Source: Alphaproteobacteria bacterium
GTDB taxonomy: Bacteria > Pseudomonadota > Alphaproteobacteria > Sphingomonadales > Sphingomonadaceae
Direction of reading: 5' to 3'
NCBI GenBank assembly: GCA_030430365.1
Contig: JAUIFP010000002.1
Coordinates: 1 to 64,000, forward strand
Length of the DNA: 64,000 bases
Below, piece after piece: positions 26,441 to 43,661 of the stretch. Within the stretch, counting starts at the first letter, position 1. Each line of letters opens with the position of its first letter. The translations under genes and the position numbers were made by a program. The notes below the pieces were generated by a model. The model was not told the DNA's origin and searched no databases. It saw only the letters and a program-made list of their open reading frames with translations.

Positions 26441-28945
26441 ATGAAAATATCAGGGAGCATTAGTCACCGCCGCACGCAATTGGCGCTACTTTCGGTGACA
26501 GGTCTTGCAACCGTTATGGCGGCTGCACCGGCAGTCGCGCAAGACAACACCGGCGACGATAACGTGATCGTCGTGACGGCGCAGATGCGCGAACAGAATG
26601 TTCAGGATATTCCGCTGTCGATTACCGCGGTCAGCGGCGAAATGCTGGAAGCTCGCAGCCAGACAAACTTGCGCGAAATTTCGGCCCAGACGCCGAACGT
26701 ACTTCTGCAACAGAATCCATCAGGGCAAGGGAACTCGATGCGCGCCTTCATTCGCGGCGTTGGTCAATCCGACCAGAGCCCGTCAGTGGAGCCGGGCGTC
26801 GGTATCTACGTCGATGACGTCTATTTCGGTACGGTTACGGCATCTGCCTTCGACCTCGTGGATCTTGATCGCGTCGAAGTTCTGCGCGGACCGCAAGGCA
26901 CACTTGCCGGCATGAACTCGCAGGGTGGTGCGATCAAACTCTACTCTCGCAAGCCGGAAGGTGAAGGCGGTTATGTTGAAGCATCGGTCGGCACGATGGG
27001 GCGCCGCGATTTCAAGGCAAGCGCGGACTTCACCGTTGTCCCGGATTCCGTGTTCGCACGCGTAACCGGTGTTTCGCGCAATCGTGACGGGCATATCACC
27101 ATGTACAATTATGCTTGTCTCAATCCGGACGATCCGGATGTGGTTTCGGGCGCAATCCCGGGTCTGATCTCCAGCGGCGACTGCAAGAGCGGCGAACTGG
27201 GCAACCAGCAGATGTATGCTGTTCGTGGCGCTCTGCGTATTGCTCCCATCGGTAGCCCGCTCGAAGTCAACCTGATCGGTGATTATACCAAGGACACGTC
27301 GAACACCCAGGCATCGGTGCTGCTGGCATCGGCTGAGTCCGCCACCAAGGGCAACGCCAGCGGTTATATCGATCGTTCCGGCATGAGCATTCCCTATCAA
27401 GGCGTAGCTTATGACGACCGTTTTGTGCCTTATGGCCAGTATCGCCGCGCCGGATCCGTACTAAACGATCCCTACGCGACTTACGCGAATTTCTACGATC
27501 CGGGTGTTACCTATATGGCGATCGGTCCGCAGGTCGGGCCGCCCTCATCTGTACCTGCCGGCGATCCGAATGGTCCCTTCATTGCCGAGAATGCCAGCCA
27601 AGTTGAAGGTTGGGGTGTTTCCGGTACGATCGATTATGAACTCAGCGATACCCTCGCACTGAAGTCGATCACCGGATATCGCAGCTATGATACGGTTAGC
27701 GGCAACGACAACGATAATTCGCCAGTCGTGTTCATTCAAAGCTCCGACTGGTACGAACACGAGCAGTTCAGCCAGGAACTGCGCCTGTCGGGCAACCTCG
27801 CCGACAATACGGTGCACTTTACCATCGGCGGCATCTATTACGATGCGGCAACGCGCCCCCTTTCGCGCATTCATACGCCGTTCTCGGGCTTTGGTCCGCC
27901 GGACAAGCCGACCTTCTCCTTCCTCAATGACGATACGGCTGACGTGAAGGTGCTGGCCGGGTTCGCCAATGCAGCTTGGGACATCACCGAGGCATTGACG
28001 ATCGAAGGCGGAATCCGCGTCACGGACGAACAGAAGGACTACACCTTCGGCCGTCTGAATCCGGATGGCCGCAGCGACTATCTGCCGCTGTCCAATCCTC
28101 TGAACCAGCTCACGGGATTCACGGATACCTACAAGGCGACGATCACCGACTATCGTGCGGTCATCTCGTATAAGGTTACTCCGGATGTTATGACCTACGC
28201 GCAATTTGCGACTGGTCATAAGGGCGGCGGTATCTCGCCGCGTCCTTACAACGTCTTCCAGATCCGTCCCTTCGGTGCCGAAAAACTTCGTTCGTATGAG
28301 GCTGGCTTCAAGACCGACCTCATGGATCGCCGGGTGCGGATCAATGGCGCTGTGTTCTACATGGAATATCTTGGATACCAGGGTATCCCCGATTTCTGCA
28401 TTGACGAGAATGGCGATCGTGTTGACCAAAATCCACGCGGCCTTTGCGGTCAATATTTGAACCTTGCCGACGCTGAAGTGAAGGGCTTCGAACTGGAAGC
28501 CTTCCTTGAGCCGGTGGACGGTTTCAATATCGACGCATCGCTCAGCCTTACGGACTTCACCTTCGGTGCCCCGACTTATTCGACGACGTCGGTCGTCGAA
28601 GGCGCCAATCGTCCGGGCATTGGTGAATGGAAGTGGAGCGTTGGCGCTCAGTACGAGTTCGATCTTGGGGAGGCGGGCACGCTTACGCCGCGCGTAGATG
28701 TTGCCTATACACCGGGCTACTGCGGCAACTTCGCCTGCGATCCGAACGCAGTTGTCGAGAGCTATACTCTCGCCAATGCACGCTTGACCTTCCGCACGCT
28801 TGACAAGGATTGGCAGGTTTCGGTGGAAGCCACGAACCTGTTCGACAAGCTTTATTACATCAACAAGTTTACGAACGGCTTCTACGCGACCGGCCAGCCA
28901 GGACGCCCGGCCGAATACGCAGTTACAGTTCGCCGCAATTTCTGA
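26441..28945 (+). CDS. TonB-dependent outer-membrane receptor
   Basis: An 834-residue receptor with a Sec signal peptide (cleavage near AVAQD, about residue 33), a TonB-box-like VIVVTAQMRE, a plug domain (QDIPLSITAVSGEMLEAR; RGPQGTLAGMNSQGGAIKLYSRKP) and a beta-barrel ending in YAVTVRRNF with terminal phenylalanine. Sphingomonads use such receptors for aromatic compounds and other scarce nutrients as well as iron. The absence of siderophore genes and the downstream exported enzymes suggest uptake of an organic substrate. An intrinsic terminator follows at 28974-29021. Confidence 0.92.
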   Translation: MKISGSISHRRTQLALLSVTGLATVMAAAPAVAQDNTGDDNVIVVTAQMREQNVQDIPLSITAVSGEMLEARSQTNLREISAQTPNVLLQQNPSGQGNSMRAFIRGVGQSDQSPSVEPGVGIYVDDVYFGTVTASAFDLVDLDRVEVLRGPQGTLAGMNSQGGAIKLYSRKPEGEGGYVEASVGTMGRRDFKASADFTVVPDSVFARVTGVSRNRDGHITMYNYACLNPDDPDVVSGAIPGLISSGDCKSGELGNQQMYAVRGALRIAPIGSPLEVNLIGDYTKDTSNTQASVLLASAESATKGNASGYIDRSGMSIPYQGVAYDDRFVPYGQYRRAGSVLNDPYATYANFYDPGVTYMAIGPQVGPPSSVPAGDPNGPFIAENASQVEGWGVSGTIDYELSDTLALKSITGYRSYDTVSGNDNDNSPVVFIQSSDWYEHEQFSQELRLSGNLADNTVHFTIGGIYYDAATRPLSRIHTPFSGFGPPDKPTFSFLNDDTADVKVLAGFANAAWDITEALTIEGGIRVTDEQKDYTFGRLNPDGRSDYLPLSNPLNQLTGFTDTYKATITDYRAVISYKVTPDVMTYAQFATGHKGGGISPRPYNVFQIRPFGAEKLRSYEAGFKTDLMDRRVRINGAVFYMEYLGYQGIPDFCIDENGDRVDQNPRGLCGQYLNLADAEVKGFELEAFLEPVDGFNIDASLSLTDFTFGAPTYSTTSVVEGANRPGIGEWKWSVGAQYEFDLGEAGTLTPRVDVAYTPGYCGNFACDPNAVVESYTLANARLTFRTLDKDWQVSVEATNLFDKLYYINKFTNGFYATGQPGRPAEYAVTVRRNF

Positions 28946-28973
28946 CAGCGACGAACTAAAATTTGAAAATTGG

Positions 28974-29021
28974 ACGGTGGGGCTGATTGCCGAAAGGCAG
29001 CAACCCCGCCGTTTCTTTTTT
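28974..29021 (+). terminator. Intrinsic terminator after TonB receptor gene
   Basis: An interrupted stem (ACGG.GGGG.TG...TGCC with GGCA.CA.CCCC.CCGT) closed by a GAAA tetraloop at 28992-28995 is followed by TTCTTTTTT (29013-29021). This is a convincing Rho-independent terminator. Confidence 0.85.
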
Positions 29022-29105
29022 GATTTGGAATTGGCGGACGGCAAATGCTGATCCGCGGACAATGGCCCTGAAGAATCAAACGGCCGCTAAGATTGGGAGA
29101 AGGAT

Positions 29106-30212
29106 ATGGATTTTGATCGCCGCACACTGTTGACTGCCGCATCGGCAACCGCAGCATTGGGTGTTGCCGGTGGCGCCGCCGGCTCAGCGAAAGCAGTGCC
29201 TTCAAGCCAGATCCGCATCGGCACGGAAGAGGCCTTTTCCACCAAAGAACATATGAAGGCCATGAAAAATCTGGTCGATGCAAATCCGGAAGTGATACGC
29301 TTCGATTATAAGCTGTGGCGAATGATTACTTCCGATCTAGAGGCCGATACCCCCAAGCGCCTGTTAGATTTCGAGAATATTCGTATCCCCGAAATGGACG
29401 AATACGGCGTCACTATGCAACTGCTTTCGCTCACTTCACCAGGTGTGCAGATGCTCGATACGGATACGGCAATCGGCGTAGCGCGAAGCACGAATGATGA
29501 GTTGGCAGGTGTGATCAAGCGCCATCCAACGCGCTTCGCAGGCCTGGCAAGTGTGGCTCCGCAAAATCCGCAAGAGGCAGCACGAGAGATTGAGCGTGCG
29601 AAAACGCAGCTCAAGCTTAACGGCATCGTGATCAATTCGCATACCAACAACGAATATCTGGACGACCAGAAATACTGGCCGATCCTGGAGGCCGCTGAAG
29701 CCTTGGATATGCCGATTTACCTACATCCGCGCACACCATCCGATCAGATGCGTCCGCCTTTCGACGACTACAACATGGGGAGCGCCTTCTGGGGCTATGG
29801 TTTAGAAACGTCGACGCATTTTGTGCGCCTCATGATGAGCGGCTTGTTCGATCGTTTCCCCAAACTCAATGTCGTCCTGGGCCATATGGGCGAGGCGGTT
29901 CCTTTCTGGATCTGGAGGTTGGATTACATGAGCGCAGCGGGCGTGAGCCGCGGCGAAACGCCCATCAAGCTGAAGCCCAGCGAATATCTGCGCCGAAACC
30001 TCAAGATCACAACCAGCGGGCAGGAGAATCCCGACGCGCTGCGCTATTCTATCGAGACTCTCGGTGCGTGGAACGTGATGTGGGCGATCGATTATCCTTA
30101 TCAGGAGACGCCCGGAGCAGTCTATTTCATGGACAATGCGCCGATCTCGCAGGCTGAAAGAGATGCGATCTACTGGCAGAATGCGCAGCGCATCTTCAAC
30201 ATTCAACGATGA
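29106..30212 (+). CDS. Tat-exported amidohydrolase of the 2,3-dihydroxybenzoate/gamma-resorcylate decarboxylase family
   Basis: A 368-residue amidohydrolase_2-type TIM barrel. The N-terminus DRRTLLTAASATAALGV is a twin-arginine signal, so the enzyme is probably periplasmic. Metal ligands expected for the decarboxylase group are visible: Glu41 in GTEEAF, His207 in YLHPR, Asp329 in AIDYPYQ; LLSLTSPGVQ, LGHMGEAVPFWIW and ITTSG also match that family. It should perform a non-oxidative decarboxylation or hydrolysis of an aromatic acid. It forms a tandem pair with the next gene, its closest relative in the window. Substrate unknown. Confidence 0.83.
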   Translation: MDFDRRTLLTAASATAALGVAGGAAGSAKAVPSSQIRIGTEEAFSTKEHMKAMKNLVDANPEVIRFDYKLWRMITSDLEADTPKRLLDFENIRIPEMDEYGVTMQLLSLTSPGVQMLDTDTAIGVARSTNDELAGVIKRHPTRFAGLASVAPQNPQEAAREIERAKTQLKLNGIVINSHTNNEYLDDQKYWPILEAAEALDMPIYLHPRTPSDQMRPPFDDYNMGSAFWGYGLETSTHFVRLMMSGLFDRFPKLNVVLGHMGEAVPFWIWRLDYMSAAGVSRGETPIKLKPSEYLRRNLKITTSGQENPDALRYSIETLGAWNVMWAIDYPYQETPGAVYFMDNAPISQAERDAIYWQNAQRIFNIQR

Positions 30213-30249
30213 GCCGCTCCAACATGCTTGCGGCAATGGGAGAGAAAAA

Positions 30250-31374
30250 GTGCAAAGAAGGGATATTCTAGGTTTAGCTGGCGCAATTGGCGCTGCGGCT
30301 GCACTTCCAGGTGTGGCAAATGCGCAGCGCAGCCTGGAGGAAGGACGCTTCCCGAAACCGAGCGGGAAGTACAAACGGATCGGTACAGAGGCCGCTTTCG
30401 CAACCCAGCCACAGCTCGATGGTTTCCGGGATATCGGCAAATACCTTGCGGAAGGTGCGGACCTGTCCTTCACCCAGATTTTGCTGGGCGACAGTGATTA
30501 CGCCAAGGATATGACGCCGCGGCTTCTCAATATCGGGGAAGGGCGCATTGCCGAAATGGATGACGGCGGCGTCGCAATGCAAGTACTTTCGCTGACGTCG
30601 CCAGGTGTCCAACTGTTCAGCGCCGACACTGCGGTTTCGATCGCGCGGGAGAGTAACGATATCCTGGCCGAGGCAATCGCAAAGCATCCCAGCCGTTTTG
30701 CCGGGCTTGCCGCTTTGTCCCCGCAGGATCCGAAGCGTGCGGTAGTGGAGATGGAGCGAGCCGTAACGCGGCTCGGCCTCAATGGCTTCATCGTCAATTC
30801 GCACACTGACGGCCATTATCTCGATGAAGAGCAAAACTGGCCTATTCTCGAAGCGGCGGAGGCACTCGGTCGCCCGATCTACATCCACCCCCGTTCGCTG
30901 CCGGAAACTTCGATCGCTCCGTTTCGGCCATATGGGCTTGGCGGAGCTTCATGGGGTTATGCGGTGGAGACAGGTACGCACGGCATGCGTCTGCTTTTCA
31001 GCGGCGTCTTCGACCGTTTCCCCAACCTCAAGATCGTACTGGGGCATATGGGCGAAGGAATCCCTTATTGGGTCTATCGCTTCGATCACATGTATGAGAC
31101 TGCAAGGCGCAATTGGGGAACTGGCGGGCTCGTTAACACGCCAAGTTTCTACCTCAAGCGCAACATGATGATCACCACCAGTGGTATGTTCTCGGAATCA
31201 GTGCTGAAATACTGCCTCGAAGTGATCGGGCCGGACAACATCATGTGGGCGGCGGATTATCCCTATCAAAACAATCGTGAAGCAGCGGCTTTTCTTGATG
31301 CCGCTGCAATTCCGGAAACTCAGAAGATCCAGATTTATTCCGGAAATGCGGAGCGGATATTCCATTTGAACTGA
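30250..31374 (+). CDS. Second exported amidohydrolase of the same decarboxylase family
   Basis: A 374-residue paralogue of the upstream gene. Start: GTG at 30250, five bases after GGGAGAG, giving VQRRDILGLAGAIGAAAALPGVANA, a twin-arginine signal cut after ANA. Catalytic residues are retained: Glu47 in GTEAAF, His in YIHPRS, Asp in AADYPYQ; LSLTSPGVQ, LGHMGEGIPYWVYR and ITTSG are shared. It follows the first copy by 37 bases, probably in one operon. Conservation of all expected metal ligands in both copies argues for two active enzymes, perhaps for different regioisomers. Confidence 0.83.
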   Translation: MQRRDILGLAGAIGAAAALPGVANAQRSLEEGRFPKPSGKYKRIGTEAAFATQPQLDGFRDIGKYLAEGADLSFTQILLGDSDYAKDMTPRLLNIGEGRIAEMDDGGVAMQVLSLTSPGVQLFSADTAVSIARESNDILAEAIAKHPSRFAGLAALSPQDPKRAVVEMERAVTRLGLNGFIVNSHTDGHYLDEEQNWPILEAAEALGRPIYIHPRSLPETSIAPFRPYGLGGASWGYAVETGTHGMRLLFSGVFDRFPNLKIVLGHMGEGIPYWVYRFDHMYETARRNWGTGGLVNTPSFYLKRNMMITTSGMFSESVLKYCLEVIGPDNIMWAADYPYQNNREAAAFLDAAAIPETQKIQIYSGNAERIFHLN

Positions 31375-31420: not shown

Positions 31421-32347
31421 TTATTCCCAAGGCGTAGGCATATTGAGCGGAATGAAGGTCACGACGCCTTCCGCATCCATGACCGTGTCTCCTTCGATGC
31501 GCACGAGTTCGGCAACAAGCCGGCTCATCGGATAGGGGCGTTGCAGTTCCACCTCGGTGCCATCGGCAGCGAAGAAGCTCGCTTCCTTGGCAGGCAGATC
31601 CTGAACGCTGATGGCGACGACCAATCCGCGCTCTGTGTCGACCACGGGGAAGCGCCGGTCGCGAATGCGCTCGACCGGAGCGAACAGGCCAGCGCTGAAG
31701 ACGGAGGCGCAATCCTTCTGGGCCGGGTCGATTTCTCCTTCCGCGGAAGAAATCTGCACGCCGTTTTCCAGCATTTTGCAGTCTTCGCCGAAGTCGGCCA
31801 GCAACGTGCCGTTATTGCGCTGCTTGGTCGCGAGGTAGTTGTCTGCGACATCGATCAACCTGTCGCGCGAGCGGCGATCGGATGCATTGACCATGCCCGT
31901 CATGTCGTCCGAAATTGCGAATGCGCGCGGATCGCCAAACGGCATGGGCCAGGGCGTGCGTCCAGCGATCACTTCGATCTCGCTGATCTCGCCGTCCGGC
32001 GCCTTGATCCGCACAGCGCCGAAGGATGGTTCGTCATGGTCCCAGATCGTGCCGAACCACATGACGTTGCCAGTGGTTTCGTCCGCGACCGCCAGCGCCT
32101 TCGAGCCGACAGTTTCGCCGACCGAGCCCCACCAGGCGTCGCCGATCGTCAGCGAAACATTGTTCTCGGTATAATAGACGGGATCGGGATCGACCCAGGG
32201 CAGACGCTGATAATCCTGTTCTGCAATGGCGACCGTGAATTCGTCTGCAAGTTTCAGCAGGCATGCTTCGTCGCAGCTTCCGGCGGAGGCGGGGCTGGCG
32301 GCCAAGGCGATGGCACTCGCGGTGATAAGGCTGGCAAGCGCGCGCAT
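31421..32347 (-). CDS. Secreted protein, DUF8021-like, downstream member of a tandem pair
   Basis: A 308-residue protein with a Sec signal peptide (MRALASLITASAIALAASPASA) and a mature start GSCDEACLLKLADEF. The pattern C-x3-CL...TENNVSLTIGDAWWGS... resembles the DUF8021 family, whose members I recall as CxxxCL...RFTEN...GLWG. A second half contains DRLIDVADNYLATKQRNNGTLLADFGEDCKMLENG, which looks like an NTF2-like unit, so the protein may be a double NTF2-like fold. No enzymatic function is assigned. Its start overlaps the stop of the upstream paralogue by one base, so the two are co-translated. Confidence 0.7.
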   Translation of the reverse strand: MRALASLITASAIALAASPASAGSCDEACLLKLADEFTVAIAEQDYQRLPWVDPDPVYYTENNVSLTIGDAWWGSVGETVGSKALAVADETTGNVMWFGTIWDHDEPSFGAVRIKAPDGEISEIEVIAGRTPWPMPFGDPRAFAISDDMTGMVNASDRRSRDRLIDVADNYLATKQRNNGTLLADFGEDCKMLENGVQISSAEGEIDPAQKDCASVFSAGLFAPVERIRDRRFPVVDTERGLVVAISVQDLPAKEASFFAADGTEVELQRPYPMSRLVAELVRIEGDTVMDAEGVVTFIPLNMPTPWE

Positions 32348-33318
32348 TATTGGTCTCCCTCGTCGGCCCAGGGCGAATGCATGCCATAGGGAACGTAATC
32401 GAAGCTCGCTTCGATGGTGAAAATCTTGCCGTCGATGATCTTGAAGGCTTCCATGATCGAAAGCGAATTGGGCCATTTCAGAAGCGTCTTCATGGTTCGG
32501 CCATCGGTCAGTTCGTATTCGTCGAAATAGTTCGCGTGATCGAAGAAGTTCATGCCCACGACGATGCCGCGTTCGACGTCGATCAGGGGGAAGCGCCGCT
32601 CGCGCAGCTGCTTGTTGATCCGGTAAATGCCGAGTTTGAACTGTTCTTCGCAGCCCTGAGCCACGGATGCGGAGTTGTTCGAGTTCTTGGTAACGGCAGT
32701 TGTGCTGATGCCGTTTTCGAGCCGCGAGCAATCGTCCGTGAAATGGGCAAAGACCTGCCCGTCATTATATTCGACCGTGTTGAAATAGGAATCCGCGATG
32801 GCGCGCAGCCTTGCGCGCGGCTTGGCCTGATCTTCGGGGACGGCCTCCGTCCAGGCCGGGTGATGCGGCTCTTCGCCGGTGCCGAAGATCAGCGGCATGC
32901 CGGTGACGCGCGAGACCACCGTTTCGGCCTCGTCGATTTCGCCGGCGCGGCTGACATGCAGCCTTATGGCCAGGAAAACCAGATTGCCGTGCTCATAGGC
33001 ATGGCCGAACCAGGCGACATTGCCGGTCACCACGTCGGCCGGCATCATGCCGTCGGCGGGGTCTGCCGCACTGACGGAGCCCCACAGGCCTTCGCCGATT
33101 GGCATCTCGACACTGTTTTCGGTGAAGCGAACATCTTCGGCAAAGGGCGCCCGCGAGGGATCCTTTGCATTCAGCGCCTCGACATAGGAGAGCGCGAAAC
33201 CTTCCAGGCAAGCTCTATCGCAATTGCTGCGCGGAAGCGCCGTCTCTTCGCCATACGCCTGCGCGCAGACGGGGGCCGCCGCAACCAGGCAGATTGCCCC
33301 AAGGGCACTGCGGATCAT
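32347..33318 (-). CDS. Secreted protein, DUF8021-like, upstream member of a tandem pair
   Basis: A 323-residue protein: signal peptide MIRSALGAICLVAAAPVCAQA, then CDRACLEGFALSYVEALNAKDPSRAPFAEDVRFTEN and GEGLWGSV, the clearest DUF8021-like match of the pair. The second half, RLRAIADSYFNTVEYNDGQVFAHFTDDCSRLENG, parallels that of the downstream gene. Two ATGs in a row (33321, 33318) follow GGGAGAGG. It is divergent from the exported SnoaL-like gene at 33521. Both proteins are expected in the periplasm with the amidohydrolases and exported SnoaL proteins. Confidence 0.72.
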   Translation of the reverse strand: MIRSALGAICLVAAAPVCAQAYGEETALPRSNCDRACLEGFALSYVEALNAKDPSRAPFAEDVRFTENSVEMPIGEGLWGSVSAADPADGMMPADVVTGNVAWFGHAYEHGNLVFLAIRLHVSRAGEIDEAETVVSRVTGMPLIFGTGEEPHHPAWTEAVPEDQAKPRARLRAIADSYFNTVEYNDGQVFAHFTDDCSRLENGISTTAVTKNSNNSASVAQGCEEQFKLGIYRINKQLRERRFPLIDVERGIVVGMNFFDHANYFDEYELTDGRTMKTLLKWPNSLSIMEAFKIIDGKIFTIEASFDYVPYGMHSPWADEGDQ

Positions 33319-33520
33319 CATTCCTCTCCCACTGTTCCTTGGCAGCAAGGTGGCAGCGGGCAATGCGGCTGTCATTGTTCGAATTGTCTTGCCGGCTTGG
33401 CTCACATGGAAGCGGCATTGCGCTTGCTGGCATCGTCCAACTAGGTTTCCGCCGCGTAATCACACCCCTGGGCGATTGGGCGGTCACGGCCCGAAGCCAC
33501 CACGAATGGAGACGGATGAA

Positions 33521-34105
33521 ATGCGAAAAACTCGTTTGGCAGTGCCTCTTGCAATGGCTGCGGCCATGGCATTCCCGGCATGGGCCGCACATGCGGAAGA
33601 CCAGCAGGAACTCACCCTGGAACAGCGGGTGGACCAGCTGGAATCGGAAAAGCAGATCCGCGAAGTCATCATCGAATATGGCGAATATCTCGATGCCCGT
33701 GACTATGCCGGCTATGCTTCTCTATTCGCCAGCGACGGGACCTGGACCGGTGGGTTCGGCAACGCAACCGGCCCTGCGGCCATTCAGAAGATGCTGGAAG
33801 ACAATCTGGGCATTCCGGAAGAGGGCTTCGTCAATAAGGACAACTTCCATCTGGACACGACTGTGATCGTCGACGTGCACGGCGATACGGCAGAGGCGCG
33901 CTCGCGCTACATGTTCTACACGCGCACTGAAGACAATCGCCCGCGTCCGCTGCTGGCGGGCCGCTATTTCGATGAATTCGTCCGCGAGAACGGCGAATGG
34001 AAGATCAAGACCCGCAAGTCCCACGGCGTGATTCCCTATCGTGACGGCAATGCTCCGCCGCCGGACGCGCCGCCGCCGGGTGTACAGGATGTCATGAAGA
34101 AATAG
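33521..34105 (+). CDS. Exported SnoaL/NTF2-like protein, subfamily A
   Basis: A 194-residue protein: signal peptide ending PAWAAHA, then a SnoaL-like domain with an N-terminal helix QLESEKQIREVIIEYGEYLDARDYAGYASLFASDGTW (here typical of scytalone dehydratase/SnoaL-type folds), a His in KDNFHLDTTVIV and the strand ERENGEWKIKTR-type ending (VRENGEWKIKTRKSHGVIP). It closely resembles the cytoplasmic protein at 34767 along its whole length (LDARD, TGP-AI-ML, NFHL, LAGRY-DE-VRE-G-W). Catalytic activity is unknown; such folds serve as lyases, isomerases, dehydratases or binding proteins. Confidence 0.8.
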   Translation: MRKTRLAVPLAMAAAMAFPAWAAHAEDQQELTLEQRVDQLESEKQIREVIIEYGEYLDARDYAGYASLFASDGTWTGGFGNATGPAAIQKMLEDNLGIPEEGFVNKDNFHLDTTVIVDVHGDTAEARSRYMFYTRTEDNRPRPLLAGRYFDEFVRENGEWKIKTRKSHGVIPYRDGNAPPPDAPPPGVQDVMKK

Positions 34106-34135
34106 GCTTGCCGGACTGAACAGCGCGGCAGGCAA

Positions 34136-34564
34136 TCATGCTTCAGGCACGGGGAGGTCCAAAGCGACGTCCCTGCGCCTGAAGCGCCATCCTTCCGGCA
34201 GTTTGATCAGGTCGTCTGAATAGCTCCCGGCGAGAGCAGGCCGGATTCCATCCGCGCCTTGTTCGAGCAGGAGCCAGCGCGACCAGCAGCTTGCACTTGC
34301 ACCCTCGCTGGCGATGGTGATCGAAAAATTGCTGAAGATGTGCACGCAAGGCGGCGTGCCTGCGAATTCTCTGGCAACGAACTCGGCCAGGGCAGGCCGC
34401 CCGGAGATGACGCCATAGTGATCGCCGCCAATCCATTCGCCATCTGGTGCGAACAGCGAAGCCCAGCCCAATGCATCGCGCAGGTCGAGCAGGCGGCCAT
34501 ATTCCGCCATCAAACGCCGGATGGCTTCCGTCTCTTCGCAATTGCAGGCTGGAGCTTGATCCAT
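34136..34564 (-). CDS. SnoaL-like protein, small, cytoplasmic
   Basis: A 142-residue protein without signal peptide. The pattern EAIRRLMAEYGRLLDLRDALGWASLFAPDGEW followed by GRPALAEFVAREF and HIFSNFSITI is that of the SnoaL-like/NTF2 superfamily. It is most like subfamily A but shorter. It is convergent with the exported gene ending at 34105, 30 bases away, and divergent from the operon beginning at 34767. Function unknown. Confidence 0.75.
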   Translation of the reverse strand: MDQAPACNCEETEAIRRLMAEYGRLLDLRDALGWASLFAPDGEWIGGDHYGVISGRPALAEFVAREFAGTPPCVHIFSNFSITIASEGASASCWSRWLLLEQGADGIRPALAGSYSDDLIKLPEGWRFRRRDVALDLPVPEA

Positions 34565-34766
34565 GGTTTCGGAAGGCGTTCCCTCACTGTTTCACCGGGC
34601 TGGATACCGCGCGATTGCAGCGTTGCCAAAGCACGCGGCCAATCCGGTCTACCTGCGCAGCCAGATCGGTCTACCGGCAACCGGGAAATCCCGGTTTATT
34701 GAAGTGCAACGGCAAACTAGAACTGTGTTTGTCTGCAGGCTGCAAATCAGCCGCATGGGAGAATAG
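34565..34766. promoter_or_regulatory. Divergent control region with direct repeat and palindrome
   Basis: CGGTCTACC occurs twice, at 34645-34653 and 34667-34675, start points 22 bases apart, i.e. two helical turns, as is typical for AraC-family half-sites. Immediately after lies the perfect palindrome AACCGGGA-AA-TCCCGGTT (34679-34696). An AraC regulator is encoded at 39434. No strong -35/-10 pair was recognised. Confidence 0.5.
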
Positions 34767-35285
34767 ATGTCTGACGCTGCTATGCCGCCCGGTTCCGGAG
34801 CGGCACAATCCGTTGAAGAACGCCTGCGCGCCTTGGAGGATGAACGCGAGATTCGCGATCTCATCATTACCTATGCGCAGCGGCTCGATGCGCGCGATCA
34901 CAAGGGATACGCGCGGCTGTTTGCACGGGAAGGGCGCTGGTCCGGCCGGATGGGAGACGCGACCGGCCCCGAGGCGATCGAGGCGATGCTGGTGGAAGGG
35001 TTCGGCCCCATGCCAGAGAATTTCGTCAACACCCAGAACTTTCACCTGATGAGCAACATCGTCATCGAAGTGGATGGCGACCGTGCGAAGGCGGAATCCC
35101 GCCTCGTTTATTTCGTGCGCACGGCCGAAGCGAAGCCCACGGCCATGCTCGCCGGGCGGTATTATGATGAGCTGGTGCGCGAAGACGGGCGCTGGCGCTT
35201 TTCTTACCGCCGCGTGGTCGGCGAGATACCGACCCGCGATGAGCGCCCAGTCAGAACACCGGAGGAAGATGGACATGTCCGCTGA
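34767..35285 (+). CDS. Cytoplasmic SnoaL/NTF2-like protein, subfamily A
   Basis: A 172-residue protein with no signal peptide, first gene of a five-gene operon. The SnoaL-like domain spans about 12-150: EERLRALEDEREIRDLIITYAQRLDARDHKGYARLF..., NTQNFHLMSNIVIEV, MLAGRYYDELVREDGRWRF. It is the cytoplasmic counterpart of the exported protein at 33521. The last 11 bases overlap the next gene. Enzymatic role unknown. Confidence 0.8.
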   Translation: MSDAAMPPGSGAAQSVEERLRALEDEREIRDLIITYAQRLDARDHKGYARLFAREGRWSGRMGDATGPEAIEAMLVEGFGPMPENFVNTQNFHLMSNIVIEVDGDRAKAESRLVYFVRTAEAKPTAMLAGRYYDELVREDGRWRFSYRRVVGEIPTRDERPVRTPEEDGHVR

Positions 35286-35928
35286 GCGGCAAGAACGTAT
35301 CGAAGCGCGTATCGCGCAGCTGAATGCAGAGCTGCAGAAGCGCGAGGACTACCAGGCGATCATACGCCTGCAGCGGGCCTATGGCTTCTATATCGACAAG
35401 GGATACTGGCGGGATGCCAGCGATCTTTTCACTGAAGACGCCACTTACGAACAGGGTGTCGACGGCGTCTTTGTCGGGCGCGACCGTATCCATCAGGTCA
35501 TCGTGAAGCTTTCCGGCGGCAATCCCGGACCGGGCCTGCCTTTCGGACAGCTTTACGAGCGCTTTCAGCTTCAGCCGGTGATCAGCGTCTCTGAAGACGG
35601 GCAGAGCGCCTTCGGGCGCTGGCACGAACTTGCCATGCTCGGCCAATATGGCGAACACGCCGAATGGGGGGAGGGCGTCTACGAAAACCGCTATCGCAAG
35701 GAAGATGGCGTCTGGAAGATCGCCGCGCTGCACTATTTTCCCAACTTCGTGGCCCCCTATGAAGGCGGCTGGGCTGTGCTCAAACCGGTCGAAGGTGACT
35801 GGCGCTCGCCCGAATTGGCCGACTTCCCGCCCGATGCACCTCCCACGGTGAACTACAAGCCGTTTCCGGACCAATTCACGGTGCCGTTCCACTATCCCCA
35901 TCCGGTCACCGGAAAGGCGGTGGCGTGA
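35275..35928 (+). CDS. Cytoplasmic SnoaL/NTF2-like protein, subfamily B
   Basis: A 217-residue protein, no signal peptide. The ATG at 35275 lies eight bases after GGAGGA; an ATG at 35269 is too close. The SnoaL-like domain contains RLQRAYGFYIDKGYW, DATYEQGVDGVFVGRDRI, RWHELAMLGQYGEHAEWGEGVYENRY, and a C-terminal proline-rich tail with NYKPFP and YPHPVTGKA. The exported protein at 40538 shares all of these. Overlaps its neighbours at both ends, so it is tightly co-translated. Confidence 0.8.
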   Translation: MSAERQERIEARIAQLNAELQKREDYQAIIRLQRAYGFYIDKGYWRDASDLFTEDATYEQGVDGVFVGRDRIHQVIVKLSGGNPGPGLPFGQLYERFQLQPVISVSEDGQSAFGRWHELAMLGQYGEHAEWGEGVYENRYRKEDGVWKIAALHYFPNFVAPYEGGWAVLKPVEGDWRSPELADFPPDAPPTVNYKPFPDQFTVPFHYPHPVTGKAVA

Positions 35929-37265
35929 TGAGTGAACACCTGCTCGACGCGCTGGAAGCGCATCTCGATTCCATCGAGCTCAGGATTGCCCGCCAGGCCT
36001 CTCACGAGGCGATAGAGCGGCTCCAGCGCTCATACTGCTATTTCATCGATAGGGGGCTCTGGACGGCCGCAGCAGACCTCTTCGCGGACGATGCGACGGG
36101 GGAATGGGGACAAAGCGGCGTATACAAGGGCAAGGAACGCATTCGTTCCTATCTCGCCCTGCGCGGGCCCGAAGGCCTCGGCGAGGGCGAGCTCAACACC
36201 CATATCACGTGCCAGCCAATCATTACCGTTGCCGATGACAACATGTCTGCCAAGTCGCGCTGGCGCAGCGACAATATGCATTGCACCGATGGCACTGGCA
36301 GTTGGAGCGAAGGGACCTACGAAAACGTCTACGTCAACGATGGCGGTGTCTGGAAGACCGCTTCCATGCATTATTACGTCACGCTGATCTGCGATTACGA
36401 CAAGGGGTGGATCGCGGGCGATATCCCTATGGATCCACCCAGCGAGACGCTGCCGCCGGATTCTCCGCCGACGGAAGTCTATGAATCGCTGCCAGGTGCC
36501 TATCTGCCGGCTTATCATTATCCCAATCCCGTGACGGGAGAGCAGCCGAAGAAGCCCGACCTTCCCGAATTGCCGGAAAGCGGCAAGGACACGCTGGCCG
36601 ATGCAGTTGCGGCGCTTTCCACCAGGGTCGAGCGGCTCGAAGACCAGCGGGCCTGTGAGAAGCTTCAGCGCAGCTATGGCTTCTATGTCGACAAGGCGAT
36701 GTGGAACGACGTGTCCGATCTCTTCGTGGACGATTCAACGCTGGAAATCGGCGGCCGCGGTGTCTTCCTGGGCAAGAAGCGCGTGCTCGAATATATGGGC
36801 ATTGGCCTCGGGCCTACCGGTCCGCAGCGCGAACAGATCATCAACCATCAGCAGTTCCAGGGCGTCGTCACCGTAGCCGAAGACGGCAAGACGGCGCGCG
36901 GACGCTGGCGCGCCTTCGTTATTGGCGGCAGTTCGTGGGCACCGGTCAATTGGGGCGATTGCCTGTATGAGAACCACTACAAGAAGGTGGATGGCGTCTG
37001 GGTGATGGACAAGCTGCATGCACCGTTCACCATGTACACGCTCTATTCCGACGGATGGCACAAGGCGACCACGCCCAATACGCGGCCCGAAAGCTTCCCG
37101 CCGCCGCCCGATCTGGCACCCACGGTGGTCTATCTGACCTATCCCAACTATTATTGCGAGCCGTTCCACTATCCCAATCCGGTCACCGGAAAGGAGGCGC
37201 CGCCACCCAATCCTGCAGCGGGAGGAGTGGCGAATATGGCGGACTTCGCCAGCGAAGAGAGTTGA
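35928..37265 (+). CDS. Fused double SnoaL/NTF2-like protein (subfamilies C and D)
   Basis: A 445-residue protein with two complete SnoaL-like units. Unit C: RLQRSYCYFIDRGLW (31-45), GPEGLGEGELNTH, CDYDKGW, tail ending YHYPNPVTGE (196-205). Unit D: KLQRSYGFYVDKAMW (245-259), TLEIGGRGVFLGKKRVLEYM, HAPFTMYT, tail VYLTYPNYYCEPFHYPNPVTGK (the last ten residues near 413-422). Unit C matches the exported protein at 41293 and unit D the exported proteins at 42057 and 42864, which are separate genes there. No signal peptide. A fusion of this kind usually means the separate partners act together. Activity unknown. Confidence 0.82.
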   Translation: MSEHLLDALEAHLDSIELRIARQASHEAIERLQRSYCYFIDRGLWTAAADLFADDATGEWGQSGVYKGKERIRSYLALRGPEGLGEGELNTHITCQPIITVADDNMSAKSRWRSDNMHCTDGTGSWSEGTYENVYVNDGGVWKTASMHYYVTLICDYDKGWIAGDIPMDPPSETLPPDSPPTEVYESLPGAYLPAYHYPNPVTGEQPKKPDLPELPESGKDTLADAVAALSTRVERLEDQRACEKLQRSYGFYVDKAMWNDVSDLFVDDSTLEIGGRGVFLGKKRVLEYMGIGLGPTGPQREQIINHQQFQGVVTVAEDGKTARGRWRAFVIGGSSWAPVNWGDCLYENHYKKVDGVWVMDKLHAPFTMYTLYSDGWHKATTPNTRPESFPPPPDLAPTVVYLTYPNYYCEPFHYPNPVTGKEAPPPNPAAGGVANMADFASEES

Positions 37266-37271
37266 ACGGGA

Positions 37272-38651
37272 GTGAGCTCTCCCCCGGATTTGTCGGTCAA
37301 AGCCGCTGAGACGTCAGGCAATGTCGACGCTCTGATCGATCTGCCGCGGCTGACCGGCCTGCAGATCGGATTGTTCCTGATTTGCGCTTTCGTGCTGTTC
37401 GCAGAAGGCTACGATTTGCAGGCGCTGGCGCTGGCCGTACCGCAGATTTCCGGGGAGTTTGGCATCCCGCCGGCGGATTTCAGCCTGGCCCTTTCCGCCA
37501 GCCTGCTGGGCATGGCGCTGGGCGGGGCAGGGTTCGCTCCGCTGGGCGACAGGATCGGACGAAAGCCGATGCTGATCCTTGCCATGGTGCTGACCGGCGG
37601 TAGCACGCTGGGTGCACTGATATATCCGACCACCTATTGGATTGCTTTTTGCCGCCTGATCACGGGGGTTGGGCTGGGCGTCACGACTGTCAATGCATCG
37701 GCCATGATGAGCGATTACGCGCCCGCCAGATGGCGGTTCATGATCATGACGGTCGTCAATTGCTCTGTGCCACTGGGCGCTTTCAGCGCGGCCATGATTG
37801 CCCCGGACATTATCGAGCATATGGGATGGCGCGGCATCTTCTGGATCGGCGGCTGGGTACCGTTGGGGGCTGCAGTGGTCGTCTGGCTGGCCATGCCTGA
37901 ATCTCTCAAATGGCTGGTTGCCGTGCGCCCCGGCGATCGGCGTATCGCGCGGATTGCCCGCTCCATTGCGCCGGGCATCGATCCGGCGAAGCTGTTCCTG
38001 TCCGAGCGCGAGGAGCATACCCGTCAGTCGGTACTTGGGCTGATGTCCCCCAATCACCGCGTCCGCACGCTGGTTGCGTGGCTCGGCACTGCGGCAGGCG
38101 CCTTCTGCCTTTACATGATGATTTCCTGGCTGCCGACCGTGCTGCGCGAAGCGCAATGGAGCACGACCGACGCCTTGCGCGGAACTGCAGCAGTCCAGCT
38201 GGGCGGTATCTTCGGCGGGTTGCTGATCGCCTGGGCGATCGACCGGCGCTGGCTCGTGGCGGCAATTGTGGCCGGCTATGGCGTATCCTCGGTCGGCCTG
38301 CTCAGTATCGGTCTGCTGCCCGAAAGCGTGCTCGGCTGGCAGTTTCTGTTGTTGCTTGTCGGGGCGGGCATATCCGGCATGCAGGGGATATGGATGTCGA
38401 TTGCGGTCGGGCTCTATCCGCTCGAACTCAGGGCGACCAGTGCCGGCTGGATGGCCGCGATCAGCCGCATCGGTGCCGTATCGGCGCCGTTCGCCGGGGG
38501 ATTGGCGGTTGCCGCCAGTATGGAGGCCAGGAACCTGTTGATGGCGCTGGTGGTCCCGATCGGGGCGACCGTCATCGCAGTAGTGCTGGCGCGCAAACAT
38601 TTCGTTCCGCCGCCGCCGGTGGTGGAAGAAGGAGAAAAGCCGAATGAATGA
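37272..38651 (+). CDS. MFS transporter, aromatic acid:H+ symporter (AAHS) type
   Basis: A 459-residue twelve-span transporter. The first span is followed by GYDLQALALAVPQIS, a family feature, and the loop 2-3 motif is LGDRIGRK; the loop after span 4 has the usual R-G pattern. AAHS members import protocatechuate, vanillate, 4-hydroxybenzoate and, in sphingomonads, biaryl acids. It starts with GTG at 37272, six bases after the fused SnoaL gene, and overlaps the next by eight. It likely moves the substrate or product of the periplasmic steps into the cytoplasm. Confidence 0.85.
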   Translation: MSSPPDLSVKAAETSGNVDALIDLPRLTGLQIGLFLICAFVLFAEGYDLQALALAVPQISGEFGIPPADFSLALSASLLGMALGGAGFAPLGDRIGRKPMLILAMVLTGGSTLGALIYPTTYWIAFCRLITGVGLGVTTVNASAMMSDYAPARWRFMIMTVVNCSVPLGAFSAAMIAPDIIEHMGWRGIFWIGGWVPLGAAVVVWLAMPESLKWLVAVRPGDRRIARIARSIAPGIDPAKLFLSEREEHTRQSVLGLMSPNHRVRTLVAWLGTAAGAFCLYMMISWLPTVLREAQWSTTDALRGTAAVQLGGIFGGLLIAWAIDRRWLVAAIVAGYGVSSVGLLSIGLLPESVLGWQFLLLLVGAGISGMQGIWMSIAVGLYPLELRATSAGWMAAISRIGAVSAPFAGGLAVAASMEARNLLMALVVPIGATVIAVVLARKHFVPPPPVVEEGEKPNE

Positions 38652-39210
38652 ACAGGAAATGGCGGCGTTGGCGGCCGATATCCGCTATCTCAAGGATCGG
38701 GCCGATATTCTAGATTGCATGAACCGCTATACGCGGGGTGCGGATCGCCTGGACCGGGATCTCCTGCTGTCGGCCTATCATCCAGATGCCACCGACGATC
38801 GCGGCGCCTTTACGGGCGGCCCTGTAGCACGGGTCGATTGGTTGCTGGCCTATCTCAGGACACTCGATCACACGACTCATCACATCACCAATTTCACTTT
38901 CGATATCGATGGCGATGTCGCGCATTGCGAAAGCTATGTCCTTACAACTCTGATGCCGGCGGGCTCGAAGGAGGCCACGATCGGTTGCGCTCGCTATATT
39001 GACCGGTTCGAACGGCGCTCCGGCGAATGGAAGATCGCGCACCGCGAAGCGGTGATGGACTTCAACTTCACTGTGCCCACAAGTGAGCTTCCGCCCAAAG
39101 TGCTCAGCAGCGCGAGGGACCGAACCGACAGATCCTATGCCCGCCCGCTGGAACTTACCGCCGAAGGGCTGGCCAGGATGCAGGCCGGGCTCAATTCGCC
39201 TGCGGACTAA
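38644..39210 (+). CDS. SnoaL_4-type NTF2-like protein
   Basis: A 188-residue cytoplasmic protein with the SnoaL_4 pattern: ADILDCMNRYTRGADRLDRDLLLSAYHPDATDDRG..., DHTTHHITNFTFDIDGD, and GCARYIDRFERRSGEWKIAHREAVMDF. This branch is common in aromatic and steroid catabolic operons of actinobacteria and sphingomonads. It is the last gene of the operon that starts at 34767 and differs from subfamilies A-D in sequence. Function unknown. Confidence 0.8.
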   Translation: MNEQEMAALAADIRYLKDRADILDCMNRYTRGADRLDRDLLLSAYHPDATDDRGAFTGGPVARVDWLLAYLRTLDHTTHHITNFTFDIDGDVAHCESYVLTTLMPAGSKEATIGCARYIDRFERRSGEWKIAHREAVMDFNFTVPTSELPPKVLSSARDRTDRSYARPLELTAEGLARMQAGLNSPAD

Positions 39211-39433: not shown

Positions 39434-40393
39434 TTGTCGCAAGTCACAGATAGACCTTGCGAATTTCTGCGTCCCCTTGTCGATTTGAGTAATGTCGAAC
39501 AAGGTGACCGGGCGCTGACGTGGGACGTCGCGGTTCGCAATACATTTCCCGGATTGTCGGTTAAGCTGGAGAGCGGCGGGGTCTCTTTCGGTTCGATCAA
39601 CTGCATGCCGATCGGATCGGGGCAGCTTTTCCAGATCGATTCCGAACCTGCGCTGGTGAGCTTTCGGCCTCCCAAGATGGACACGATTGTTCCGCATTTC
39701 TCGCTGATGGTGCAGTCGAAAGGCACGATGGTCGCAAGCCAGGCGGGCCAGGTCTGCATGCTGGGCGAAGGCGATCTCTGCATGATCGACGAGGCGAAGG
39801 CATTTCGCCTGACTGGCGAAGAGCGGACCGAGTTCCTGCTGCTGAGGCTGCCGCGTGCTGCGGTGCTTAGCCGCTATCCGCATCTTGAACGCGTGATCGC
39901 CAGCACCCTTTCCGGCCACGAACCGGGCACCAAACTTCTCAGCGAGACATTGCTGCGCCTGGCGAGCGAGGCAGGCCTGCTGCAGGACCTTCAGCGCAGC
40001 GCGATGATGAATGCCATCATTCACATGCTGGGCGTGGCAGAGCCGTTCCTCGGCCTGCCTGCCGGTGCCGATTGGCGTGTGCGCCGCGCGCTCGACTATA
40101 TCGAGCTCAATCTGTCGGTCGCAGGGCTGACGGCGGAAGTTGTGGCGCAGGACCAGCATATCAGCCGCCGCAGGCTGGACCAGCTGATGCACGACGCTTT
40201 CGGCCATTCCATCGCAAGCCATCTTTGGAGCCGTAGGCTGGAGCAAGCCGCTGCAGATTTGCGTGATCCCCACCGTTCCGACCTGTCGATTGCGCAAATA
40301 GCCTTCGCGAACGGCTTTGAGGATGCGGCCCATTTTACGCGGGCGTTCAAGCGCAAATATCGCATTACACCAGGGCAATGGCGACTGAACTGA
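39434..40393 (+). CDS. AraC-family transcriptional regulator
   Basis: A 319-residue regulator. The N-terminal part (about 1-200) resembles the AraC-binding-like/ligand domain found in NphR- and FeaR-type regulators of aromatic catabolism. The C-terminal AraC helix-turn-helix pair spans about 215-315: RRALDYIELNLS, DQHISRRRLDQLMHDAFG and the second motif ELSIAQIAFANGFEDAAHFTRAFKRKYRITPGQWR-type (here DLSIAQIAFANGFEDAAHF). TTG start five bases after GGAGGAG. It lies between the two SnoaL operons and is the best candidate for controlling both. Confidence 0.87.
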   Translation: MSQVTDRPCEFLRPLVDLSNVEQGDRALTWDVAVRNTFPGLSVKLESGGVSFGSINCMPIGSGQLFQIDSEPALVSFRPPKMDTIVPHFSLMVQSKGTMVASQAGQVCMLGEGDLCMIDEAKAFRLTGEERTEFLLLRLPRAAVLSRYPHLERVIASTLSGHEPGTKLLSETLLRLASEAGLLQDLQRSAMMNAIIHMLGVAEPFLGLPAGADWRVRRALDYIELNLSVAGLTAEVVAQDQHISRRRLDQLMHDAFGHSIASHLWSRRLEQAAADLRDPHRSDLSIAQIAFANGFEDAAHFTRAFKRKYRITPGQWRLN

Positions 40394-40537: not shown

Positions 40538-41293
40538 ATGAGGCATTCAACTCTCGCATCCACGGGATTGCTCCGGGCTGCTCTCGCTCCGATCAAGATC
40601 GCGGCGCTTGCGGCACCCGCTTTCCTGCTGGCGCCGCAAGCCGCCCATGCACAATCCGCCATCGATCAGGAAATCGACGCGCTTACGACGCGTGTCGAAG
40701 TGCTCGAAGGCACTCGCGCAGTTAAGAAGCTGCAGCGTGCCTTCGGCTTCTATGTCGACCGCGGGCTGTGGGGAGAAGCTGCCGACCTGTTTGCCGATAA
40801 TGGCACGATCGAGATCGGTCTTGACGGCGTCTATGTCGGCAAGGACCGGATCGAAGAATATCTGCGCCGCCTGCATGGCGGGCAGGAGGGGCTCATCTAT
40901 GGCCAGCTCAACGAATGGGTGACGCTGCAGCCAGCTATTTCCGTGGCTTCCGATGGCCGCTCCGCAACTGCGCGCTGGCGCGACAATGGCATGCTTGGCC
41001 AGTACAAGGAGCATGCCGAATGGCGCGATGGTATCTACGAGAATACCTATGTGAAGGAAGGCGGGATCTGGAAAATCCAGTCCCTGCACCTGTACGTGAA
41101 CTTCCTGGCGCCCTTCGAAAAGGGCTGGGCGCGTCTCGAGCCGGGCGAAGGGCTGCAGCCGAGCGAAACTTCCCAGGCGTTTCCGCCCGATCGTGGGCCC
41201 AGCGTAAACTACAAGCCGTTCCCCGATGTACAGATTCCGCCATTTCAGGCGCCTAACCCGGTGACCGGCCAACCTGTGAAAGGAGCGATGTGA
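40538..41293 (+). CDS. Exported SnoaL/NTF2-like protein, subfamily B
   Basis: A 251-residue protein with a Sec signal peptide (cleavage near QAAHA). The domain KLQRAFGFYVDRGLW, GLDGVYVGKDRIEEYL, MLGQYKEHAEWRDGIYENTY and the proline-rich tail NYKPFPDVQIPPFQAPNPVTGQ match the cytoplasmic protein at 35275. First gene of a four-gene operon of exported SnoaL proteins; the last base of its stop is the first of the next ATG. Function unknown. Confidence 0.8.
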   Translation: MRHSTLASTGLLRAALAPIKIAALAAPAFLLAPQAAHAQSAIDQEIDALTTRVEVLEGTRAVKKLQRAFGFYVDRGLWGEAADLFADNGTIEIGLDGVYVGKDRIEEYLRRLHGGQEGLIYGQLNEWVTLQPAISVASDGRSATARWRDNGMLGQYKEHAEWRDGIYENTYVKEGGIWKIQSLHLYVNFLAPFEKGWARLEPGEGLQPSETSQAFPPDRGPSVNYKPFPDVQIPPFQAPNPVTGQPVKGAM

Positions 41294-42060
41294 TGCGCAC
41301 AGGCAAAAAGCTCCTGCAGTTCTGCTGCATCGCCGCAGTAGGGCTGACGCCGCTGACACTTGCGACGCCCACCATGGCCCAATCGGTGGAGGCCCGCCTT
41401 GCAGCCTATCGTGAACGTGTGGAGCGTTTGGAGGACCAGGCCGCGATCGAAAACCTCCAGGCGAGCTTCGGCTATTATTTCGACAAGGGCCTGTGGGATG
41501 AGGCAGCTTCGCTGTTCGCCGATAACGGCACCTACGAATATGAACAGCAAGGCGTCTATGTCGGCAAGGATCGTATCCAGCGTGCAATGTTGCTGCTGGG
41601 GCCGCAAGGGCTGGCACCGGGCTATCTCAACAATCACATGATGCTTCAAAACGTCATCATCGTCGACGATGACGGGCAAACGGCGACTGGCCGTTGGCAG
41701 GGGCCGATCCAGCTTGCTGAACCAGGTGCCAATGGCGAATGGGCAGTCGGCATCTACGAGAATGAATATGTGAAGGATGGCGGCGTCTGGAAGATTTCCA
41801 AGCTGCACTTCTATCTGACTGCCAAGACGGATTATGACCGGCCCTATACATCAGGCTCTCAGCCCATGCAGGGACAGAGCGCTTTGTTCCCGCCGGATCG
41901 TCCGCCAAGCGAAGTCTATCGCAGCTTCCCGGCGGCTTATATTCCGCCGTTCAGCTTCAAGCATCCTGTGACGGGTGAACCACTGACTGACCTGCCGATG
42001 GCAGGCGACGATGTCGTGGGGCGTGCGCCGATCGAATTCGAAGACGAAGCGGGCGAATGA
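41293..42060 (+). CDS. Exported SnoaL/NTF2-like protein, subfamily C
   Basis: A 255-residue protein with a signal peptide (cleavage near TMAQS). It matches unit C of the fused cytoplasmic protein at 35928: NLQASFGYYFDKGLW, QGVYVGKDRIQ, GPQGLAPGYLNNH, TDYDRPY, PPDRPPSEVYRSFPAAYIPPF and HPVTGE. The ATG at 41293 lies seven bases after AGGAG. A four-base overlap with the next gene (ATGA) implies coupled translation and probably a complex. Confidence 0.8.
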   Translation: MRTGKKLLQFCCIAAVGLTPLTLATPTMAQSVEARLAAYRERVERLEDQAAIENLQASFGYYFDKGLWDEAASLFADNGTYEYEQQGVYVGKDRIQRAMLLLGPQGLAPGYLNNHMMLQNVIIVDDDGQTATGRWQGPIQLAEPGANGEWAVGIYENEYVKDGGVWKISKLHFYLTAKTDYDRPYTSGSQPMQGQSALFPPDRPPSEVYRSFPAAYIPPFSFKHPVTGEPLTDLPMAGDDVVGRAPIEFEDEAGE

Positions 42061-42860
42061 TGCTCCGCAGGATTGCTTCAGCTGCATCTCGTGCTGCGCT
42101 TGCAGCGCCATTGCTGCTTGTCGCCGCGCCCGCGGCCGCGCAGTCGGCAAGCGAGCGCCTAGATGAACTGGATGCGCGAATTTCCCGTCTGGAGGATATG
42201 AACCAGATCGAGCGGGTTCAGCGCACCTACGGGTATTTCGTCGACAAGGGACAATGGACGCCGCTTGCCGAGCTGTTCACCGAAGATGCGACGCTGGAAA
42301 TCGGAGGGAAAGGCATCTTCCTGGGGCGGGACCGCGTGCTCGAATATATGCAGACTGCATTCGGCAAGGATGGCGCGGGTGAGGGGCGCCTGGCCAACCA
42401 CATGCAGTTTCAGCCTATCCCCGACATTTCGCCGGACGGTGAGACGGGATGGATCCGTTCGCGAGCCTACGTGATGAGCGTCGGCTGGGGGCTGCCGCTC
42501 TACGAAAACGAATATGAGAAGGGCGAAGACGGCAAGTGGCGGATCAGCCGCCTGACCGGGCCTTTCACCATGTACACAAGCTGGGAAGGGTGGGGCAAAT
42601 GGGCCATGAACAACACCTGGCCCGACAAGTTCGATCCGCCGCCGGATCTGCCGCCATCGGTCGTCTATCTGACCTATCCGGCCTATTACATCATCCCATT
42701 CCATTATCCGAACCCGGTGTCCGGTGAGGCCTTCATTCCCGATACGGGCGAAGTCGGAGCCTATCACCGGCCGCCCGGAAATCCCGAACAGGCCGCCTCG
42801 CTGAAAGTGGGGCGCACTGCCAACGGGACACAACCGATTGCCGAACCTCCAAGGGACTGA
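42057..42860 (+). CDS. Exported SnoaL/NTF2-like protein, subfamily D, copy 1
   Basis: A 267-residue protein with a signal peptide ending APAAAQS. Matches unit D of the fused cytoplasmic protein: RVQRTYGYFVDKGQW, TLEIGGKGIFLGRDRVLEYM, NHMQFQPIPDIS, GPFTMYTSWEGWG, VYLTYPAYYIIPFHYPNPVSGE (last part near residues 210-220). It is nearly a duplicate of the next gene. ATG at 42057 or 42060. Both carry the same C-terminal extension (GEVGAYHRPPG), absent from the cytoplasmic fusion. Confidence 0.8.
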   Translation: MMLRRIASAASRAALAAPLLLVAAPAAAQSASERLDELDARISRLEDMNQIERVQRTYGYFVDKGQWTPLAELFTEDATLEIGGKGIFLGRDRVLEYMQTAFGKDGAGEGRLANHMQFQPIPDISPDGETGWIRSRAYVMSVGWGLPLYENEYEKGEDGKWRISRLTGPFTMYTSWEGWGKWAMNNTWPDKFDPPPDLPPSVVYLTYPAYYIIPFHYPNPVSGEAFIPDTGEVGAYHRPPGNPEQAASLKVGRTANGTQPIAEPPRD

Positions 42861-42863
42861 GTG

Positions 42864-43661
42864 ATGGCCAGGAACAGAACTTTTGCCGGTTTGGCAGCTG
42901 CAGCGATGCTTGCGGTGACTGCAATGCCCGCGCAGGCGCAGACCGCCAGCGAGAAACTGGATGCGCTTAATATGCGGATCGAGCGGCTCGAAGGCATGAA
43001 CCAGATCGAGCGCCTGCAGCGGACCTATGGCTATTTCGTCGACAAGGCGCAGTGGTCCCAGCTTGCGGAGCTTTTCACCGAAGATGCGACGCTGGAGATC
43101 GGCGGCAAGGGCCTGTTCGTCGGCAAGCACCGGGTGCTTGAATATATGCAGAAGTCCTTCGGCAAGGATGGCATACGCCCCGGCGTACTCATCAATCACA
43201 TGCAGTTTCAGCCGATCCCGGATATCTCCGCAGATGGAAAAACGGGGTGGCTGCGCCAACGCGCCTATGTGATGGCCAATGGCGGATGGGGCTTGCCGCT
43301 CTACGAAAACGAATACCGCAAGGGTGACGATGGCAAGTGGCGGATCAGCCGTCTGACCGGGCCGTTCACCATGTATACCGACTGGGAAGGGTGGGGTGAG
43401 AACGCCACGAACAACACTTGGCCGGACAAGTTCGGACCACCGCCGGATCTACCGCCCACGGTCATCTATCTGACCTATCCGGGCTATTACATCATACCCT
43501 ACCACTATCCGAACCCTGTAACGGGCAAGGCTTTCATACCTGATCAAGGCGAGGTGGGGGCCTATCACCGTCCACCAGGCACTGCAGAGCAGGAAGCCAC
43601 TTTGAAGGCTGGGCGTACGGTGTACGGGACACAGCCGATCATGGAACCGCCAAGGGATTGA
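42864..43661 (+). CDS. Exported SnoaL/NTF2-like protein, subfamily D, copy 2
   Basis: A 265-residue signal-peptide protein (cleavage near PAQAQT), a recent duplicate of the gene at 42057: shared RLQRTYGYFVDKAQW, TLEIGGKGLFVGKHRVLEYMQ, NHMQFQPIPDIS, GPFTMYTDWEGWG, GEVGAYHRPPG and the end PRD. The ATG at 42864 is seven bases after AAGGGA. Retention of the same key positions in both copies suggests that both are functional. End of the operon. Confidence 0.8.
   Translation: MARNRTFAGLAAAAMLAVTAMPAQAQTASEKLDALNMRIERLEGMNQIERLQRTYGYFVDKAQWSQLAELFTEDATLEIGGKGLFVGKHRVLEYMQKSFGKDGIRPGVLINHMQFQPIPDISADGKTGWLRQRAYVMANGGWGLPLYENEYRKGDDGKWRISRLTGPFTMYTDWEGWGENATNNTWPDKFGPPPDLPPTVIYLTYPGYYIIPYHYPNPVTGKAFIPDQGEVGAYHRPPGTAEQEATLKAGRTVYGTQPIMEPPRD

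Follow-up and report, generated by a model that had tools for sequence, protein, structure and literature searches.

The window, by which we mean the whole 64,000-nt stretch of contig JAUIFP010000002.1 (GCA_030430365.1; Alphaproteobacteria bacterium, Sphingomonadaceae) that was analyzed, contains two operons for SnoaL-like proteins of three paralogous classes, B, C, and D. The relevant genes, all on the forward strand, are:

35263..35928 (+): B subunit of the cytoplasmic version, about 220 aa and with no signal peptide apparent; its stop overlaps the ATG of the fusion gene
35928..37265 (+): 445-aa C-D fusion protein; its two SnoaL_4 domains span about residues 3-205 and 223-430
37272..38651 (+): MFS transporter (MFS_1, E 4.2e-40), directly 3' of the fusion gene
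39434..40393 (+): AraC-type regulator with HTH_18 and AraC_binding_2, directly 5' of the exported triad
40538..41293 (+): B subunit of the exported version, 251 aa with a Sec-type signal
41290..42060 (+): C subunit of the exported version, with its ATG at 41293 and a Sec-type signal
42057..42860 (+): D1 subunit of the exported version, with a Sec-type signal
42861..43661 (+): exported D2 subunit, ATG at 42864, Sec-type signal, 79% identical to D1

The open frame of the fusion gene begins with a GTG at 35925 or an ATG at 35928 and ends at 37265. Because of the overlap between this ATG and the preceding gene's stop (TGATG), 445 residues are the likely length of the protein. A Pfam profile search detected two stretches of SnoaL_4 (PF13577) in the fusion, with an E value of 1.2e-48 for the whole protein, and the curated cut-off of this family was passed by B, C, D1, D2, and both fusion halves; NCBIfam assigned no family to B, C, D1, or the fusion. 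Three genomes of a single genus carry the C-D fusion, and its presence in two congeners of the window genome, at 97% and 81% identity, rules out an assembly artefact.

When the proteins of the window were compared with each other by BLASTP, the top match of the N-terminal half of the fusion was the exported C (44.5% over 218 aa), and those of the C-terminal half were D2, at 48% identity over 225 aa, and D1, at 50.5% over 194 aa. All of these were reciprocal best hits with a clear bit-score margin, and they exceed the range of identities between the classes (33-46%). Together with the domain tree described below, this bears out the initial annotation, which had read the 445-residue protein as a unit C followed by a unit D. 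Its view that the fusion is cytoplasmic and that C, D1, and D2 are exported also holds by a simple heuristic, which detected Sec-type signal sequences on the exported copies and none on the fusions; a signal call on the frame of the cytoplasmic B is spurious, as it arises upstream of the B start. C, D1, and D2 are indeed separate genes, and the proposed overlaps of their ends are found at C/D1 (42057), as at B/C (41290/41293), whereas D2 (42861/42864) directly follows the D1 stop. What had been missed is the third class, B, which precedes the C-D unit in both operons and whose cytoplasmic and exported members are each other's reciprocal best match (51%). Judged from these comparisons, the window contains two versions of one set, a cytoplasmic one made of B and the C-D fusion and an exported one made of B, C, D1, and D2.

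From their positions, the MFS transporter gene is probably on the same transcript as the fusion gene, and the AraC-type regulator possibly controls the exported triad. Further SnoaL_4 genes lie at 33515-34105, 34136-34564 (minus strand), 34767-35285, and 38644-39210, and the products of those at 33515 and 34767 share 49% identity. The same region (32347-39210) also holds a 352-aa frame at 32347-33405 (minus strand) that may carry a signal sequence and that matched nothing in Pfam or NCBIfam. Just upstream, a TonB-dependent receptor gene is followed by two Amidohydro_2 genes (26441-31374), which fits a catabolic island.

We searched 397 related genomes of the same family, scoring at most four candidates per genome, and found a match at E 1e-36 or better in 35 of them. 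From this search, 40 genomic stretches were fetched and read for triads, which yielded 25 B-C-D triads in 24 of the 397 genomes. Their genes were always adjacent and in the order B-C-D, with one triad cut at a contig edge. Neither B alone nor C alone was present among the stretches examined, and the occurrence of C without D, which would have spoken against a partnership, was looked for and not seen in the genomes sampled. The 22 single homologues that were checked outside triads form a separate solo class; LdpA-like single homologues and an additional copy of D (L025) were also encountered. No new triads were found in 385 genomes spread over the class, so that within the sampled genomes the split triads seem confined to this family. 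A plasmid collection gave five weak matches and no fusion.

In a tree of 138 domains, B, C, and D each formed a clade (SH-aLRT 97, 90, and 99, respectively) that unites exported and cytoplasmic copies, and the N- and C-terminal halves of the fusion fell with C (90) and D (99). The most likely reading of these shared clades is that both versions go back to a single three-part set, which was copied as a whole.

The nearest characterized enzymes are LdpA and PcfL, which are encoded by single genes (PMC11323797, PMC12997858). LdpA is a diarylpropane gamma-formaldehyde lyase, of a group that deformylates an aromatic dimer to a stilbene, with known structures (PDB 8abt, 8abu, 8abv, and 8abw), of which 8abu is the H97Q variant with substrate. 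It is both the nearest solved structure and the nearest sequence relative, sharing the NTF2/SnoaL fold, the conserved C-terminal part, and the Asp and His residues that are kept in C and D. LdpA also occurs in the same bacteria, and in Sphingobium sp. SYK-6 the triad is about 45 kb from ldpA. However, LdpA is the product of one gene, whereas here three paralogous classes occur together, with a B that has no His and as a set that can be exported, and the identity of LdpA to the B/C/D set is only about 30-39%. B, C, and D are not LdpA orthologues, given identities of 35-39% in the orthology comparison and a separate LdpA orthologue in the window genome. This orthologue is encoded on another contig (G000:C15:10443-11111, minus strand) and is 70% identical to SpLdpA.

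The column of the catalytic histidine, His97 in NaLdpA numbering, was set by comparison of the 8abu and 8abt sequences. A His is found at this column in 2/2 LdpA, 9/9 solo, and 5/5 other single homologues, as well as in all 28 C and all 33 D domains. In B, this His is present in only 1 of 27 sequences, with Trp in 24 and Arg in 2. Both Asp40 and His97 of LdpA are kept in C, D, and the two fusion halves, including the exported C (YYFD and NNHMMLQ), D1, and D2; the B proteins of the window keep the Asp and have lost the His, which is replaced by Arg in the cytoplasmic B (LYERFQLQ) and by Trp in the exported B (NEWVTLQ). The cytoplasmic B of a congener (L024 12036-12899, minus strand) retains the His (LHEHFQLQ), so that the loss may have occurred more than once.

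AlphaFold2 predicted the fusion of the window with a pLDDT of 88.7 and a pTM of 0.88 (55 sequences), and a triple-domain protein of SYK-6, of the kind described below, with a pLDDT of 91.9 and a pTM of 0.93 (67 sequences). Both fused chains are confidently predicted to pack as compact single bodies. The alignment behind the fusion model consists mostly of domain 2-3 segments of triple proteins, on which the model therefore depends; the few single-domain rows were badly aligned and split over both halves. In VIA-align comparisons, LdpA was the best solved-structure match of both fusion halves (Z 23), and other fold matches were LinA (18.1), BaiE (16.7), and scytalone dehydratase (14.7).

The same searches turned up proteins in which three SnoaL domains are combined in 640-850 aa. 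Such triple proteins are present in 18 of the 397 family genomes, and 16 of these 18 also have a triad (hypergeometric 8e-21, with relatedness ignored). A scan of named genomes gave 72 triple-domain loci in Alpha-, Gamma-, and Deltaproteobacteria, Acidobacteria, and Actinobacteria. Sphingobium sp. SYK-6 has a triad at 1330262-1332742 plus several triple-domain proteins (L061, L069, L112, and L124), some of them in tandem. A MAG labelled Clostridiales, an assignment that may be wrong, contains a 1887-aa open frame (L121 6434-12094) with six SnoaL domains, arranged as T1 T2 T3 T1 T2 T3. With respect to the active site, domain 1 of the triple proteins has lost the Asp in 95 and the His in 89 of 101 cases, domain 2 mostly has Arg or His at the His97 column, and domain 3 has kept the His in 101/101.

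The triple proteins could in principle have arisen by an independent triplication and would then be uninformative on B, C, and D, an alternative that is compatible with our preferred explanation and that we regard as possible, albeit with some doubt. In agreement with it, T1, T2, and T3 form their own clades in the 138-domain tree, and AU tests, which were completed for all but four pairings, did not reject alternative pairings of the triple domains with B, C, and D. However, when bridging sequences from Acidobacteria and others were included, domain 1 grouped with B and domain 2 with C, and in a set assignment to B, C, and D profiles the order B-C-D fitted 81 of 86 triple proteins, a signal that comes from domains 1 and 2, domain 3 matching D weakly. 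From these trees and profiles, triple proteins and triads likely share an origin, and even after independent triplication the triple proteins would show the fold being used in a three-part form.

With regard to a possible role, the next same-strand gene in 22 of the 24 triad loci belongs to one homologous family of about 700 aa, and Pfam identified all seven of the neighbors that were tested as PQQ dehydrogenases carrying a cytochrome domain. Many of these PQQ genes are preceded by a strictosidine-synthase-like propeller gene. No PQQ dehydrogenase is encoded beside the exported triad of the window itself. Taken together, the PQQ neighbor, the kinship to LdpA, and the SYK-6 setting suggest that the exported set is an elimination enzyme acting on an oxidized aromatic.

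The explanation that we consider probable is that B, C, and D are specialized copies of an LdpA-like NTF2/SnoaL protein that work in one mixed three-part unit, for which we infer inter-chain contact, stoichiometry, chemistry, and substrate. One LdpA-like enzyme would have given rise to the three copies, which would assemble as a mixed B:C:D unit, most likely a 1:1:1 trimer by analogy with LinA and scytalone dehydratase, both of which are homotrimers (PMC3507683). C and D, with their Asp/His pair, would provide the active sites, and B, which has lost the His in its exported form, would probably have a structural or substrate-shaping role. On this view, the window encodes a cytoplasmic unit built from B and the C-D fusion and an exported unit built from B, C, and two variants of D; the triple-domain proteins elsewhere would follow this design, or a parallel one, within a single chain. 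The reaction would likely be a cofactor-free elimination, such as a dehydration or deformylation, of a bulky and probably lignin-derived aromatic, and the PQQ-dependent dehydrogenase beside the exported set in most relatives would oxidize an alcohol in the same pathway.

As tandem paralogues of differing specificity are common in sphingomonads, we also considered that B, C, and D could be homo-oligomers for successive or alternative steps of a pathway, with operon and fusion serving to coordinate expression or to unite the steps. The solo relatives with both catalytic residues demonstrate that the fold works alone, in line with such separate enzymes. However, B, despite its lack of the His, is never missing from the set, domain 1 of the triple proteins is mostly devoid of both residues, and the fusion and the triple protein are each predicted to form one compact body, and we therefore regard separate enzymes as unlikely.

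The initial annotation had taken the fusion to mean that C and D belong to the same heteromer, a view that is well supported by conserved adjacency, co-inheritance, the fusion itself, and the confident packing prediction; as the full set, however, C and D are incomplete, since B is as constant as they are and the triple-fusion proteins point to B:C:D. A reading of the fusion as C plus D only was dropped for the same constancy of B. A heterodimer or C2D2-type complex of C and D, with B being separate or chaperone-like, would fit the window, where only C and D are fused, and has a precedent in MonBI and MonBII, where MonBI aids the folding of its NTF2-like paralogue MonBII (PMC13311259), but it is rather improbable given that B is no less constant than C and D and that a B-like domain is present in the same chain of the triple proteins.

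Compared with known systems, the proposed B:C:D unit shares the fold and the Asp-His pair, in LinA the dyad D25/H73 (PMC3507683), with LinA, scytalone dehydratase, and BaiE, all of which catalyze cofactor-free eliminations. Each of these three is encoded by one gene, however, and lacks a subunit that is missing the catalytic pair. We know of no fused forms of them. In MonBI-MonBII (9kw6), whose heterodimer structure has been solved, two NTF2-like paralogues act together, and a related two-domain enzyme, Lsd19, is known; these are dimeric epoxide-opening enzymes of polyether biosynthesis with two parts instead of three, and no close sequence relation was seen. Hsh3, a sphingomonad steroid dehydratase, was set aside, as it is not NTF2-like. 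Nothing was found on SnoaL and heterotrimers in the open-access literature, although work published elsewhere is possible, and no paper was found for the tags of the SYK-6 triad, SLG_1219-1224 by a rough guess from gene spacing. There is an even chance that B, C, and D represent an unrecognized class of heterotrimeric NTF2-like lyases or dehydratases, with one subunit without the catalytic His, three architectures (separate genes for the three units, a B gene plus a gene for the C-D fusion, or a single three-domain gene), a distribution over several phyla, and uncharacterized members in SYK-6.

NTF2-like lyases of aromatic catabolism have so far been treated as one-gene enzymes. SYK-6 alone has 62 NTF2 homologues (PMC12997858), and if none of B, C, and D works without the others, screens of the NTF2 homologues of lignin degraders by single-gene expression would miss them. 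The fused forms provide a ready single-chain construct for studying the division of work in an asymmetric three-part enzyme, and the copies in SYK-6, a model organism of lignin degradation, make the idea testable in a strain with established genetics.
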